A DNA stretch of 37,267 nucleotides, taken from an uncultured marine group I thaumarchaeote. Its GTDB lineage: Archaea > Thermoproteota > Nitrososphaeria > Nitrososphaerales > Nitrosopumilaceae. Below the pieces are notes generated by a model, which was not told the DNA's origin, did not search any database, and saw nothing but the letters and a program-made list of their open reading frames with translations. Of the stretch, positions 18,833 to 26,181 are shown piece after piece; position 1 is the stretch's first letter, and each line of letters begins with the position of its first letter. Made by a program: the position numbers and the translations under genes. The stretch is from assembly GCA_902590655.1 (NCBI GenBank), contig CACIXQ010000008.1:1-37267 (forward strand). The letters are read 5' to 3'.

Positions 18833-19669
18833 GTGCTCAATAGTGTTCTTAAGGATGCAATCAAAAAACGTGATGAAACGTTATCAATTTTGAAAGGCCC
18901 AAAATTCGAACAGATAATCAAACAGGCTAAATCAAACTGGGTAGATTTTTCACCAACAAAACAGGATGTTACCGCTGCTGGTATTGATAGTAGCTTCAAC
19001 AGTACAAAATTTCAGGGTGCAGAATTATGGGCAGTCACAGCGGTTTCTGTCAAATCAGATGGAGAAATTCTAGTTGATTTACATGAACATGGACTTGATT
19101 CAAACCCAGAACTTGCATCACTAGCAAGCAAGATGGAGATTGATGCATGTAAAGAATCAGTTGATAGTACTGATCTAGTGTTGATGGATGGTTCACTTTA
19201 TTCTCAGTTTCTCACAAGACAAAAATCACTAGCGGATTCACTTGTGAATGCAATTACAAAAAAGAATAATGTTGTTTTTATTTCAAAAACATCCAACACC
19301 AAGAAGCAATTTGACGATCTAGGTGCAATAGCAGGAGATATCTTCTATTACAATCATGCAACAGTTTCTCCTGGATTTAGTAAAATTCACGAGGATTCAA
19401 AATTTGGAAATAATATGATTATTTCCTCAGTTTTTGCTAGATTATCAGAATCGTTACCATTGATCAAAATTGAACTTTTAGGCTCTGGATATGACAATAG
19501 TGATTTCAAATTAATTTTAAACAAAATACTGAAAAATAGTGTTGGCGGATACCCATATGCGTTAAAGCTTGCACATAACAACTGCAAGATCTCAGGTAAA
19601 GATTTGACAAAACTTGCTAGCATTCATGGACTATCGAATGAAATTGGTTCAAGGGAGGTTTTAGGATGA
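18833..19669 (+). CDS. nurA: NurA 5'-3' nuclease
   Basis: 278 aa. NurA works with the HerA hexamer to resect DNA ends in archaeal recombinational repair. The metal-binding motifs are GIDSSFN (D52) and LVLMDGSL (D119), in the order seen in NurA. A final conserved stretch, GYPYALKLAHNNCKIS, lies near residues 240-255. The protein is shorter than the usual 330-350 aa. The start is GTG at 18833; an ATG two bases earlier is out of frame, and an in-frame stop lies 18 bases upstream of the GTG. Its last codon overlaps the herA ATG (ATGA). It is the first gene of a four-gene repair operon. Confidence 0.88.
   Translation: MLNSVLKDAIKKRDETLSILKGPKFEQIIKQAKSNWVDFSPTKQDVTAAGIDSSFNSTKFQGAELWAVTAVSVKSDGEILVDLHEHGLDSNPELASLASKMEIDACKESVDSTDLVLMDGSLYSQFLTRQKSLADSLVNAITKKNNVVFISKTSNTKKQFDDLGAIAGDIFYYNHATVSPGFSKIHEDSKFGNNMIISSVFARLSESLPLIKIELLGSGYDNSDFKLILNKILKNSVGGYPYALKLAHNNCKISGKDLTKLASIHGLSNEIGSREVLG
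19653..19659 (+). promoter_or_regulatory. Shine-Dalgarno site of herA
   Basis: gggaggt lies 6 bases before the herA ATG, inside the end of nurA. It is one of the few strong ribosome-binding sites in the window and fits translation from the middle of an operon. Confidence 0.6.
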
Positions 19670-21192
19670 CGTTAGGATTTGTTATTGGTGAATCAAAGCC
19701 GACCGTAGTAACAGGACAAACATCAAGATCATTGCCAATAGGTGAATATGTTATCATAAATTCAAAGGAAGGAAAGATTGTTGGTCTAGTTGAAAAATCA
19801 GTTGTGTCAAGTGCTGCACTCGGTGATGTTAACAATTACGATGAGACTTTAGAAAGTATTGAAGTTGCTGCACTAAACAAACGTGATAAAAGCAATACAG
19901 CAATGATTAGGATTCTGGGATTTCTAGAGTCACTACAAAAAGGTAAAGCAATACTTCCTGCTGTACCACCAATACCAGGAACTGAAATTGTTAAGGCAAC
20001 GAAGGATGATCTTGGACAAATATTTGGACCGGAAAGTAGTGAATGGATAAAAATTGGTGGACTTCTTAGAAACCCTGAGATAAGCTCACAGATTAATCTC
20101 AACAAGATTGTTTCACGGCATCTTGGAATTCTTGCAATGACAGGAATGGGAAAGAGTAACTTGGTAACACTTCTTGCAAAGCAAATTGCAAAGCTTGATG
20201 GAACAGTAATAATTTTTGATTATCATAACGACTATTCTGGTCTAGACTTTCCAAAAATGAATGTAATTGATGCCAAAATTAATCCTAGATTGTTAGAAGC
20301 TGACACACTTTCAGATGTCCTAGAGATTAGAGAAGGTGCTGACATACAGCAAAGAGTTCTACGACTTGCATTCACACCAGAAGTAAAGGAGTCAGCAAAT
20401 TTCTGGGAAGCTTTAGATAAACAAGTACAATACATTGGTGCAAACCCAGACAGAAAAGAAGATAGGCATTCTGCTGACAGAGTTCAAGACAAGATTGACG
20501 ACGCTAGACATAGGGCATCAGAGATTTTGGATCCTGATATGTCAAATCCAGTTGCACTTATCAAAGAAGGTCGACTAAACATTCTAAACGTATCAGAGTT
20601 CACGGACAGACAGGCAAATGTTGCACTTGCTTACTATTTACAAGAACTTTTAGCAGATAGAAAGGCTGCTGTAAACGCAAAGGGTGGGAAAGTAAAATCA
20701 AAGAGAAGTTACAGATTCAATACTCCTATTTTTGTAATAATTGAAGAGGCACACGTATTCATTCCCAAAAATGAAGATGCAAAAGCAAAGTACTGGGCAG
20801 CAAAGATTGCTCGGGAAGGAAGGAAGTTTGGTCTTGGTTTAGGAATAGTATCGCAGAGACCTAGAGATATTGAGGCTAATGTTCTAAGCCAGATGGGCTC
20901 ACTTGCAGTAATGAAGATTGTACAGGAAGATGACCAACGGCAGATTGCATCTGCCGCTGAATCTATCAGTAAAGAGTTCATTGCACAACTTACATCATTG
21001 AATATTGGTGACGCTGTTCTTGTTGGTCAATGGGTAAACCTTCCTGCCATAGTACACATTGACGAAATGAAAGGAAAGAAAATTGGTTCTGATCAAAACG
21101 CAGTTGGTGAATGGGCTGTTGCGAAAAAAGTTGGAGCCGCAGGAACAAATTCAAGCCAAGATCTGGTTAAAAAAGATCTTTTGATGGATTAA
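19666..21192 (+). CDS. herA: HerA DNA helicase/translocase
   Basis: 508 aa, normal for archaeal HerA, a hexameric FtsK/VirB4-like motor that drives NurA in DNA end resection. The N-terminal HAS barrel domain covers about residues 1-90. Walker A is AMTGMGKSN (157-165) and the Walker B region is VIIFDYHND (181-189). A second acidic pair occurs in VIIEEAHVF, and the later IVSQRPRDI contains the sensor-like RP motif. The ATG at 19666 overlaps the nurA stop and follows a strong ribosome-binding site. mre11 begins 1 base after its stop. Confidence 0.95.
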   Translation: MTLGFVIGESKPTVVTGQTSRSLPIGEYVIINSKEGKIVGLVEKSVVSSAALGDVNNYDETLESIEVAALNKRDKSNTAMIRILGFLESLQKGKAILPAVPPIPGTEIVKATKDDLGQIFGPESSEWIKIGGLLRNPEISSQINLNKIVSRHLGILAMTGMGKSNLVTLLAKQIAKLDGTVIIFDYHNDYSGLDFPKMNVIDAKINPRLLEADTLSDVLEIREGADIQQRVLRLAFTPEVKESANFWEALDKQVQYIGANPDRKEDRHSADRVQDKIDDARHRASEILDPDMSNPVALIKEGRLNILNVSEFTDRQANVALAYYLQELLADRKAAVNAKGGKVKSKRSYRFNTPIFVIIEEAHVFIPKNEDAKAKYWAAKIAREGRKFGLGLGIVSQRPRDIEANVLSQMGSLAVMKIVQEDDQRQIASAAESISKEFIAQLTSLNIGDAVLVGQWVNLPAIVHIDEMKGKKIGSDQNAVGEWAVAKKVGAAGTNSSQDLVKKDLLMD

Positions 21193-21193
21193 T

Positions 21194-22327
21194 ATGTTAT
21201 TTTCACACATTTCTGATACACACTTAGGACTACAGCAATATGGTCTAGAAGAAAGAGAGCAGGACATCTATGATTCATTCAACCAGGCAATTGATATCTC
21301 GATAAAAGATCATGTAGATTTTGTAATATTTGCTGGTGACATCTTTCATACACCAAATCCAAGTGGTACCGCAATCATACAAATGGCAAATGCACTCAAG
21401 AGACTGAAAAAAAATTCGATTGAATCATTTTTCATTCTTGGTGAACACGACATTAGTAGGATGCGTGCAACTCCTGTACCTTACGTATACCATAACTTAG
21501 AATTTTCAAAATATGTAGGAAGGGGTGAACCTGTATATCACAAGGATGTTATGATTGTAGGATTTGATAAAATAAGAAAAAATGAACTTGAATCATTTGA
21601 AGAAAAATTTAGAGAGATTGATGCACTAGCAAAACAACATAATGGTCACAAAATTTTGGTATTACATCAAGGAATTACGGAGGTTAACCAATTCGCTGCG
21701 GAATTAAATTCTTCAGATCTACCAAAGAACTTTACTTACTATGCAATGGGGCACTTACATGATAAATCTGTAAAGCAATTTGATCAGTTAGGAGGACCAC
21801 TTGCATATCCTGGATCAACGGAAATGACAACGAGTGAAGGAATAAAGGAAACAGAAAAAGGATTTTTTGAAGTAGATATTTCATCGAAGGAAGCAAAACC
21901 AAACTGGATAAAATTAGATACAAGACCACAATTTTCTACAAAAATTGAAGATGACTTTGATACTTCAATATCTAAAATGTTGGAAAAAATATCTACGTTT
22001 GATAAAAAGCCAATAGTTGAGATTAAAATTATTGGTAAGGATATTGAGAGAGATGTAGTACAGACAAAAATTTCTGAGATCATTCCACAAACATTACATT
22101 GTTCATGGAAGATGTTACAAAGTGAAGATACATCGTCAGTTCTACTAAACAGACCTGCACGAATAGACGAGGAATTACTAAAACTTGCAATAAACTCTTT
22201 GAAATCAGAAAAACTTGCTAATTTTGCTGTAAATGACCTACTTCCACTCTTATCATCGAACCAACTCGACCAAGCTACACAACTAGTAATTGAAAATTTT
22301 GAGCAATTCAAGAGGAATGGAAAATGA
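21194..22327 (+). CDS. mre11: Mre11 nuclease
   Basis: 377 aa. This is the phosphoesterase subunit of the Mre11-Rad50 complex that opens and trims double-strand break ends. Metal and catalytic motifs: D8 and H10 in SDTHLG, D49 and H52 in GDIFH, E84, H85 and D86 in GEHD, H158 in LHQG, and H187 and H189 in GHLHD. The usual motif III is GNHD/GNHE; here the metal-binding Asn is replaced by Glu. The C-terminal part, from about residue 285, would cap and bind Rad50. It overlaps the rad50 start by 4 bases (ATGA), so the two should be made together. Confidence 0.95.
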   Translation: MLFSHISDTHLGLQQYGLEEREQDIYDSFNQAIDISIKDHVDFVIFAGDIFHTPNPSGTAIIQMANALKRLKKNSIESFFILGEHDISRMRATPVPYVYHNLEFSKYVGRGEPVYHKDVMIVGFDKIRKNELESFEEKFREIDALAKQHNGHKILVLHQGITEVNQFAAELNSSDLPKNFTYYAMGHLHDKSVKQFDQLGGPLAYPGSTEMTTSEGIKETEKGFFEVDISSKEAKPNWIKLDTRPQFSTKIEDDFDTSISKMLEKISTFDKKPIVEIKIIGKDIERDVVQTKISEIIPQTLHCSWKMLQSEDTSSVLLNRPARIDEELLKLAINSLKSEKLANFAVNDLLPLLSSNQLDQATQLVIENFEQFKRNGK

Positions 22328-24402
22328 TTCGTACCATAGAACTGGTTGATTTTCTGGCTCATTCTAATACAAAATTAGGGTTTGAGAATGATGCTACAGT
22401 GTTTGTTGGGGATAATGGTGCAGGAAAATCAAGCATCATAGATGCAATTACGTTTTCACTATTTGGAGAACATACAAGAAAGAATACCAAAGGATTGATT
22501 AGAACGGGAGCAAACCAAGGATTTGCAAAAATTGAATTTTCTGCTAATGGAAAAAACTATCAAGCCATAAGAAAAATTGATTCTAAGGGAACACTAACTG
22601 CACAGTTTGCAGAGTATGTAAATGGAAAATTAGTTCCAATTGCAGAAGGAGAGAGAAAACAGTTTGGAGAATCAATGACCAAACATGTTGAAGAAACACT
22701 TGGAATGGATTTTGAAAAATTAAAAATCGCATCTATAGTTCAACAGGGTGAACTTAGTTCAATCATAAAAGCAAAACCAAAGGAGTTCAAGGAACTACTA
22801 AACACAATAATTGGTATTGACAAATTAGACACTGCACTAGCATCCATGAGAACCGTACAAAGGGAATTTAGAAACACCATACAGAAAAAATTTGGTTATG
22901 ATGACACACAAATTGAACTTCTTGAAAATAAAATTTCTGAATATCAGAATGAATCTAAAAATGCACAGCCTAGATTAGAACAGCTTGATGTTGAAAAGAA
23001 AGAACAGGAATCATTGATCACAAAACTTGAAAAACAAATTCAGAATGATTCAACCAAAGAATCACAGCTAAAAGATCTAGAATCAAGAAAAAAGGAATGG
23101 CAAGAATATGCAAAGGATGTCATAAAATCAATTCAAAATGAAGTTGCTGAAAAAGAAGAAATTGTGAATGAATGCAAACCATGCTTTGCAGTATCTAAAA
23201 ATAAAAATGATATTGAATCAGAAATTAACAAAATTCAGGAAAAACTTTCTTCTATTGAATCAGAACTAAGTGATTTGGAGAAAAAACAAGTAAGACTCGA
23301 AGAACATGAAGAACTTGCTGAGAAATTAGTATTAAAGGATGGAAAATGCCCTGTCTGTGACTCTACAGTAGACCATCTCAAGCCACTGTTCCAAAAAAAG
23401 CACATAGAGGATGAGATTAAAGAAATAGAAAAGAAAATTGAAAAACTAGAAAATGAAAAAGACGAACTTGAACAAAACGTTGGTAGTCTTTCTAATGATC
23501 TAGAAGAATCTAAAAAAGCTGAAACAATTCTTGATACGCACAAAATTAAGAATCAATCACAATTAGATGAAATTATTGCAGAAATAAAGATAAAGGTGAA
23601 GCAAATGCAAAAGATACCTCTGACAATTAATTCTGGTCAATTAGTAGAAGCCGCAAGCCTGGATTCACATGCAAAAACCATCTATGAGAATATTATTTCA
23701 CTTGAAAAATCAACAAAAGGTTTTGATCAGAAGGAATTTCTCAAAAACATTGAATCTAGAGCCAATTCCATGACTAAATTGAGTCAAATCAATCAGGAAT
23801 ATGGAGAGATTTCTGGAAATATCAAAAAAGCTAAGATGGAACTAGAAAAACTTGATTCTACATTAGTAGAATTAAAACATGTTGTAGGATATGTTACGGA
23901 TCTTGAAAATATTCAGGAAAGTGTTTACAACAGAGATGGTCCAGTGGGTAAGAGTCTTCGTTCATGGGCCTTAGAAATTATTTCACAGAAAGCATCAGAC
24001 TATCTTGAGAAACTCAACACAAAGATTCAAAGAATATCATTGTCAGAAAAAACACGCGATGTAAACATTTCATGTTACTCTAGAAATACAACACTTGATC
24101 TTGAATCACTTAGCGGTGGTGAACAAGTTAGCATTGCATTAGCATTAAGACTTGGTATGTCGCATCTTCTTGGTTCATCAAATCTTAATTTTATGATACT
24201 TGATGAACCCACTGCACATTTAGATGGTGAACGAAGAAAATCTCTTGTGAATGTTTTATCTCAACTAACAAGTCTTAAAGAAGATTCATCAATACAATTC
24301 ATTATCATAACTCATGATGCAGAAATCTTTGATGACTCAGCAGTAGAAAACATCTACAAGTTTGAATCAAATCCTAATGGAACAATAGTTTCTAGACTTT
24401 AA
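22324..24402 (+). CDS. rad50: Rad50 ATPase with shortened coiled coil
   Basis: 692 aa SMC-like ATPase partner of Mre11. Walker A is GDNGAGKSS (29-37), the zinc hook is CPVC (C342, C345), the signature is LSGGE (596-600) and Walker B is MILDEP (624-629). Long heptad-like coiled coils run from about 195 to 335 and from 355 to 515. Archaeal Rad50 proteins are commonly about 850-900 aa, so the arms are short here. The ATG follows the gaggaatgg stretch at the end of mre11, and the 4-base overlap indicates coupling. It ends convergent with the HEAT-repeat gene, overlapping by 4 bases. Confidence 0.96.
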   Translation: MIRTIELVDFLAHSNTKLGFENDATVFVGDNGAGKSSIIDAITFSLFGEHTRKNTKGLIRTGANQGFAKIEFSANGKNYQAIRKIDSKGTLTAQFAEYVNGKLVPIAEGERKQFGESMTKHVEETLGMDFEKLKIASIVQQGELSSIIKAKPKEFKELLNTIIGIDKLDTALASMRTVQREFRNTIQKKFGYDDTQIELLENKISEYQNESKNAQPRLEQLDVEKKEQESLITKLEKQIQNDSTKESQLKDLESRKKEWQEYAKDVIKSIQNEVAEKEEIVNECKPCFAVSKNKNDIESEINKIQEKLSSIESELSDLEKKQVRLEEHEELAEKLVLKDGKCPVCDSTVDHLKPLFQKKHIEDEIKEIEKKIEKLENEKDELEQNVGSLSNDLEESKKAETILDTHKIKNQSQLDEIIAEIKIKVKQMQKIPLTINSGQLVEAASLDSHAKTIYENIISLEKSTKGFDQKEFLKNIESRANSMTKLSQINQEYGEISGNIKKAKMELEKLDSTLVELKHVVGYVTDLENIQESVYNRDGPVGKSLRSWALEIISQKASDYLEKLNTKIQRISLSEKTRDVNISCYSRNTTLDLESLSGGEQVSIALALRLGMSHLLGSSNLNFMILDEPTAHLDGERRKSLVNVLSQLTSLKEDSSIQFIIITHDAEIFDDSAVENIYKFESNPNGTIVSRL

Positions 24403-24887
24403 CCGCCAGTAAGTTTAGCAAATTTTTCATTCTTGCTTAACTTTTCCATAAACTCTAGATTAGACAATGCAACAACTGCAGAATCTCTTACTGGTTCATC
24501 AGGATCATCTAATGCTTTCTCAAGAGTTTCGCGTGCTTTTTTAGAACCCATGACGCCTAATGCAATTGCAGCTTCATGTCGTACAAACATACTAGGATCG
24601 TTTTTTGTTGCATCCTCTAATGGTGCAATTCCATTACTGTAACACATTTGTCCTAGTGAAAATGCAGCTTCATGTCTTACAAGCTCGTTTGCGTCGTCCT
24701 TCAGAACTTTTGCAATGTACTTCACTTTATCCTCACCTCCTATGTCAACAAGAATACAAGTTGCACGACAGCGTATGACATAATCATCATGATCTAACAG
24801 TTTTACAAAATACTGGGTATCCTTCTTCTCATATCGTTCTTCCATTTCTGTCAGAAGATCTAATCTTGATTGAGGAACAACAGTCAT
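24399..24887 (-). CDS. HEAT-repeat protein with two His-Glu dyads (half-size DOHH-like)
   Basis: 162 aa from the ATG at 24887. At least four HEAT/PBS-lyase repeats are visible. The two central ones carry RHEAAFSLGQM (H72, E73) and RHEAAIALGVMG (H104, E105), 32 residues apart. The outer repeats have Arg-Cys and Asp-Ser at the same place. Deoxyhypusine hydroxylase binds di-iron through four such His-Glu dyads in two four-repeat halves with similar spacing and a similar LGQM context, so this protein resembles one half. A TTG at 24929 would add 14 residues. I prefer the ATG because a TATA-like aatatat sits about 25 bp before it, inside that extension. It could be a plain scaffold protein; function is unproven. 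Confidence 0.75.
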   Translation of the reverse strand: MTVVPQSRLDLLTEMEERYEKKDTQYFVKLLDHDDYVIRCRATCILVDIGGEDKVKYIAKVLKDDANELVRHEAAFSLGQMCYSNGIAPLEDATKNDPSMFVRHEAAIALGVMGSKKARETLEKALDDPDEPVRDSAVVALSNLEFMEKLSKNEKFAKLTGG

Positions 24888-25597: not shown

Positions 25598-25617
25598 AAT
25601 AACACTAAATGATTACT

Positions 25618-26181
25618 ATGGCACAAATGCCGGCACTAATTCCAAAAGAGGTGGAAATCCAGAGACTGAAAAAGATCTGGATGATCATCATCGCAATGGG
25701 ATCTACTGCAGCATCAGTAGAGGTCGACAACTTTGTTGACGGTTCTCTACACCAGACTTCTATCAGAGACAGCGCATTTACTCCAGCACATTGGTGGCTA
25801 TACTCTCACTTTGTAGCATTGCCACTAGGTTGGGCATCTGTTGCAATCTATGATAGAAAAGTACCAGTTCTCAGAGGACCAAACAACTCTATGAACACTG
25901 GATTGAAAATGACCATTCTTGGTTATTTGGCAACCATGTTTACGATTGGTATCAACGAGATGTGGCACTTTTGGTTCGTCGAGGAAATCTTTGCGGTACC
26001 AAACCACTGGATGTTCAATATGGGTGTAGTCGTAGCCTTTATGGGCGCTCTAGCATATGTAGTTAGAGTTTATGCACGACTGGTTGAGCTAGGTGCAGAA
26101 ACACCAGGTGAAAACCCATACGTTGCAGAAATGTACAAGATGGCCTTAGAAGGCAAACTGTACAGCAGATCCATCCCTTAG
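25618..26181 (+). CDS. amoC: Ammonia monooxygenase subunit C, stand-alone copy
   Basis: 187 aa, archaeal AmoC length. AmoC is an integral subunit of the copper enzyme that oxidises ammonia to hydroxylamine in the cell membrane. The N-terminus MAQMPALIPKEVEIQ matches archaeal AmoC as I know it, so I start at the ATG at 25618 rather than 25609. Membrane helices lie near 15-35, 62-82, 103-120 and 133-155. In NEMWHFW and later PNHWMF, two His are 13 residues apart, the spacing of the CuC-site histidines in PmoC. Codons often end in C (atc, aac, tac), unlike the neighbours, which suggests strong expression. No amoA, amoB or amoX is nearby. A structured T-rich 3' region follows directly. Confidence 0.96.
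   Translation: MAQMPALIPKEVEIQRLKKIWMIIIAMGSTAASVEVDNFVDGSLHQTSIRDSAFTPAHWWLYSHFVALPLGWASVAIYDRKVPVLRGPNNSMNTGLKMTILGYLATMFTIGINEMWHFWFVEEIFAVPNHWMFNMGVVVAFMGALAYVVRVYARLVELGAETPGENPYVAEMYKMALEGKLYSRSIP

Follow-up and report, generated by a model that had tools for sequence, protein, structure and literature searches.

A half-size HEAT protein of ammonia-oxidizing archaea related to deoxyhypusine hydroxylase: a candidate homodimeric di-iron oxygenase

The hypusine modification is essential in eukaryotes, where it is completed by the iron enzyme deoxyhypusine hydroxylase (DOHH). DOHH, as in the human enzyme and yeast Lia1, is a single chain of about 300 amino acids with eight HEAT repeats, and it carries four strictly conserved His-Glu (HE) dyads. 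Each four-repeat arm has two of them, one on its second and one on its third repeat. To our knowledge, DOHH is the only characterised enzyme with such an arrangement of HE dyads on HEAT repeats. By mutagenesis, H56, H89, E90, H207, H240 and E241 were assigned to iron binding, and E57, E90, E208 and E241, along with two glycines, to substrate binding; the enzyme is specific for eIF5A (PMC9117371). No archaeal DOHH homologue is known, though some archaea contain hypusine (2016-2021: PMC5178350, PMC6105217, PMC7773846, PMC8153317), which has been reported for Sulfolobus, Thermoproteus and the anaerobic Pyrodictium (PMC5178350). A literature search that covered subscription journals sparsely, and preprints not at all, found nothing on hypusine in Thaumarchaeota or in ammonia-oxidizing archaea.

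The window analysed here, a stretch of 37,267 nucleotides from an uncultured marine group I thaumarchaeote that is an ammonia oxidizer, contains on its minus strand a gene (24399..24887; ATG at 24887, stop at 24399-24401) for a HEAT protein of 162 amino acids. Orthologues range from 98 to about 35% identity, and the gene differs from its closest relative by 37 synonymous and 3 nonsynonymous codon differences; judged from these comparisons, it is therefore a real functional gene under purifying selection. Pfam recognises only generic repeats in the product (HEAT_2, 83.6 bits against a cut-off of 27.7; HEAT_PBS, 49.4 bits against 20.9), and in an NCBIfam search no model exceeded its cut-off, the HEAT matches lying far below. 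The AlphaFold monomer model (pLDDT 92.6) consists of four HEAT repeats and end helices. As the sequence-only reading had observed, two HE dyads stand 32 residues apart in neighbouring repeats, in the motifs LVRHEAAFSLGQM (H72-E73) and FVRHEAAIALGVMG (H104-E105). The first, within RHEAAFSLGQM (codons of H72-E73 at 24669..24674, minus strand), begins the second helix of repeat 2 in the predicted fold, and the other, within RHEAAIALG (codons of H104-E105 at 24573..24578, minus strand), begins the second helix of repeat 3. The C terminus ends in a conserved LTGG tail (24402..24413, minus strand), with xTGG found in most family members. Among 103 orthologues, the tail reads LTGG in 81, MTGG in 6, KTGG in 5 and LVGG in 1, with APRP in distant ones.

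The protein aligns end to end with each half of human DOHH (sequence checked against PDB 4d4z) at about 30 and 32% identity. Dyads fall on dyads, H72-E73 on H56-E57 and H207-E208, and H104-E105 on H89-E90 and H240-E241. The spacing within each half of DOHH is 33, close to the 32 of the archaeal protein. The two proteins share a GQ that follows dyad 1, a VRHE..ALG motif at the second dyad, and R39. The invariant G79-Q80 pair (codons at 24648..24653, minus strand) includes the counterpart of the substrate-binding G214 of DOHH and of its N-half equivalent, which is printed as G65 in the source paper and which the alignment implies to be G63 (PMC9117371). Counterparts of every iron and substrate residue assigned in DOHH (PMC9117371) are invariant in the archaeal family.

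In phmmer comparisons with the DOHH halves, the family reached medians of 47 bits (N half) and 40 bits (C half), against 20 and 24 bits for the best ordinary long HEAT protein. With the four dyads masked, the medians were 36 and 28.5, and the best ordinary HEAT protein scored 19 and 27. By these alignments, the relationship to DOHH goes beyond generic HEAT similarity, clearly for the N half and marginally for the masked C half. Human DOHH is also the top natural (non-designed) match in the PDB by phmmer, by profile and by fold, and the monomer model matches it with a TM score of 0.72 and an rmsd of 4.3. Designed HEAT proteins (alphaReps), which have no dyads, score equal to or above DOHH against the family profile; the profile score by itself therefore proves little, and natural HEAT proteins are the informative contrast.

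These natural relatives include the PBS-lyase-type HEAT proteins (CpcE/CpcF, NblB, YibA) and long archaeal HEAT_2 proteins, which have the repeat fold and the Pfam models HEAT_2 and HEAT_PBS in common with the family, but those long HEAT proteins that were sampled lack HE dyads at the equivalent positions. HE occurs at 0 of 59 equivalent model positions in a small control set of 18 long ordinary HEAT proteins, archaeal and bacterial, and at all 206 aligned dyad positions of the 103 orthologues collected. Conservation of the dyads in orthologues, a check proposed from the sequence, thus gave a positive answer, both being kept in 103 of 103. R39, G79, Q80 and G111 are likewise invariant in all 103, as is E73, which together with G79 corresponds to substrate-binding residues of DOHH. 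Both dyads are also invariant in a diverse 22-member alignment with identities down to 35%. Ordinary HEAT repeats have many different residues at the dyad positions, so their invariance in this family indicates a function. Chance, or a generic RHEAA motif, was discarded as the source of the dyads on these counts; the caveat that RHEAA-type sequences also occur in non-metal HEAT proteins does not account for the pattern, within the limits of the small control set.

Orthologues occur in more than 120 of the 150 genomes of the class (127 were counted, of which three are weak matches to paralogues and two are fragments), and 0.8-Mb genomes (G112, G135) keep the gene. Across 397 Thermoproteota genomes, clear orthologues score 171-271 bits, against 75 bits at most for other HEAT proteins. 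They come from the ammonia-oxidizing families, from family f9, which belongs to that class too, and from families f24, f38 and f63 outside the class. In this genome set, heme-copper oxidase subunit I is present in each of the 27 genera that have a clear orthologue and in 95 of the 96 genomes, the exception (G110) being fragmented. Hypergeometric values for the association, which ignore shared ancestry, are 5e-14 by genus and about 2e-6 by family, the latter with a hand count of about 68 families. The gene was not found in the oxidase-less Nitrososphaerales genomes G128, G139 and G141. Nor was it found, among the 397 genomes, in the O2-respiring Sulfolobaceae and Thermoproteaceae (family names inferred) or in family f8. 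The HEAT family is thus nearly confined to genomes with a heme-copper oxidase, and the converse fails.

This distribution bears on the proposed link to hypusine in archaea that have no known hydroxylase. The link holds only in part: hypusine is reported in some archaea, with no DOHH homologue known there, but the HEAT gene was not found in the lineages of Sulfolobus and Thermoproteus. Hypusine in these, and in anaerobic Pyrodictium, implies another hydroxylating route in archaea, and as the gene is absent from the Sulfolobaceae, it does not account for hypusine across archaea as a whole.

The genome of the window (G000) encodes deoxyhypusine synthase (DHS; contig C9) and an aIF5A with the SKPGKHGSAK loop and the modifiable lysine (contig C18). 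No operon of the HEAT gene with either was seen in the genomes examined. In one genome (G027), aIF5A (L096, 1519-1908) and the HEAT gene (2195-2683) are adjacent and converge on a tRNA gene that separates them, and in its congener G025 they lie 30 kb apart. An argument from gene neighbourhood was dropped, because the adjacency occurs in G027 only and chance suffices to explain it over many genomes.

The gene product is probably a half-size, DOHH-like non-heme di-iron oxygenase, and deoxyhypusine is somewhat favoured as its substrate. What best explains the observations is a homodimeric enzyme of this kind, most likely hydroxylating deoxyhypusine on aIF5A, a reading that we lean towards because of the four HEAT repeats, the two invariant dyads in DOHH register and the similarity to both DOHH halves, and also because clear orthologues occur in respiring lineages and DHS and aIF5A with a modifiable lysine are encoded in the genome. 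Having half the length of DOHH and two dyads per chain instead of four, the archaeal protein would need two chains for a DOHH-type site. Two identical subunits may pair face to face, in the manner of the N-terminal and C-terminal arms of DOHH, and their four dyads would then supply four histidines and two glutamates for two irons in a pseudo-two-fold site. The glutamates of the first dyads and G79 could hold the deoxyhypusine side chain, and the di-iron site would activate O2 and hydroxylate the aminobutyl group, converting deoxyhypusine on aIF5A into hypusine. The notion of half a DOHH is partly supported, by the invariant dyads, the similarity to both halves beyond generic HEAT, the monomer fold match, the co-occurrence with respiratory O2 use and the presence of DHS and the target lysine, but it does not extend to the eight-repeat single chain; the protein is therefore filed as a DOHH-like half and not as DOHH. 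An apparent natural fused two-unit version in G101 was rejected, the two fragments being pieces bordered by N runs.

A dimeric di-iron (or other metal) HEAT oxygenase might act on another protein or on a small molecule, which we regard as a rather unlikely alternative. The dyads point to a metal site and not to a substrate, the gene was not found in an operon with aIF5A or DHS, and the existence of a second HE-dyad family (family 2) in about 36 of the 150 class genomes indicates that the fold has diversified. Against this, the counterparts of the substrate-binding glycine and of the first-dyad glutamate are also invariant, and the one characterised enzyme that we know to have the arrangement, DOHH, acts specifically on eIF5A. 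A role specific to ammonia oxidation is unlikely, because the HEAT family extends to lineages that are probably not ammonia oxidizers. HEAT proteins mostly serve as adaptors, and a non-metal adaptor, in which the RHEAA motifs would be structural or would bind a protein partner, agrees with the generic Pfam and NCBIfam matches and with the equally good match of designed HEAT proteins to the family profile. We consider it improbable, since positions that are free in ordinary HEAT proteins (0 of 59 HE) are invariant here down to 35% identity, and since the association with heme-copper oxidase would be unexpected for an adaptor.

The active enzyme could also be a heterodimer of the present family (family 1) with family 2, whose dyads are likewise 32 residues apart and which shares many genomes with family 1. 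This is very improbable: only some 36 of the 150 class genomes have a family 2 match above 200 bits, family 2 was not detected in G077 and G112 or in the Nitrosopelagicus-type genomes G000, G040, G142 and G148, of which G000, G040, G077 and G112 keep family 1, and G103, which does carry family 2, lacks a clear member of family 1. An obligate heterodimer was set aside on the same grounds. As family 2 is missing from the genome of the window and from many of its relatives, homodimerisation of family 1 is the more likely arrangement, and the persistence of family 1 where family 2 is absent is what homodimerisation requires.

Family 2 (L142, L143, L144, L145 and L148; alignment A3) resembles family 1 in size and dyad spacing but is distinguished by a conserved N-terminal RWDxVW..E and by a patchy distribution; no description of it was found in the literature. 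In a phylogenetic tree, the N half and the C half of DOHH group most closely with one another (support 0.996), which is consistent with an origin by duplication of one unit. A joint clade of DOHH, family 1 and family 2 had a support of 0.09 and the grouping of DOHH with family 2 one of 0.89; in this weak tree, family 2 groups slightly nearer to DOHH than family 1 does, and the ordering was dropped because such values are too weak to name the nearest archaeal family. It is conceivable, and we suggest it only tentatively, that a homodimeric half-size deoxyhypusine hydroxylase of respiring archaea represents the architecture whose duplication and fusion gave rise to eukaryotic DOHH, with family 2 as a further branch of the oxygenase group. 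In a third short HEAT protein, L147 (G083:C18), the spacing of the HE dyads is 42 residues.

With a half-size candidate that is conserved throughout the ammonia-oxidizing archaea, the question of an archaeal DOHH becomes directly testable, and hypusine is predicted to occur in this lineage. The candidate also offers a model for the origin of a two-armed di-iron enzyme from a HEAT scaffold. If the proposal is true, an O2-dependent modification of a translation factor would be tied to respiration in archaea.

The HEAT gene lies convergent to a nurA-herA-mre11-rad50 cluster (18833..24402, plus strand), which is given as context only; mre11-rad50 also adjoins the HEAT gene in G040 (L149). The ammonia-oxidation gene amoC (25609-26178) is located on the other side, and no further amo gene was present among the flanking proteins scanned in the window. 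A link to ammonia oxidation through the nearby amoC was rejected: in G040 (L149), which represents another member of the genus, the HEAT gene stands beside rad50 and a redoxin-like gene, with no amoC, and the HEAT family is also present in lineages other than the ammonia oxidizers. In the window, amoC and a small unassigned protein separate the HEAT gene from a redoxin-like gene, which in G040 (L149) follows it directly.

A minor observation concerns aIF5A itself. Six genomes, from families f2 and f5, have its reading frame broken by a short insertion where the hypusine loop (SKPG-K-HGSAK) is encoded, the interrupted copies being L197 1580-1640 (G055) and L198-L202 (G125, G068, G087, G065 and G100). 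Most of these copies could fold into a strong hairpin, which suggests a bulge-helix-bulge type mRNA intron placed at the modified lysine.
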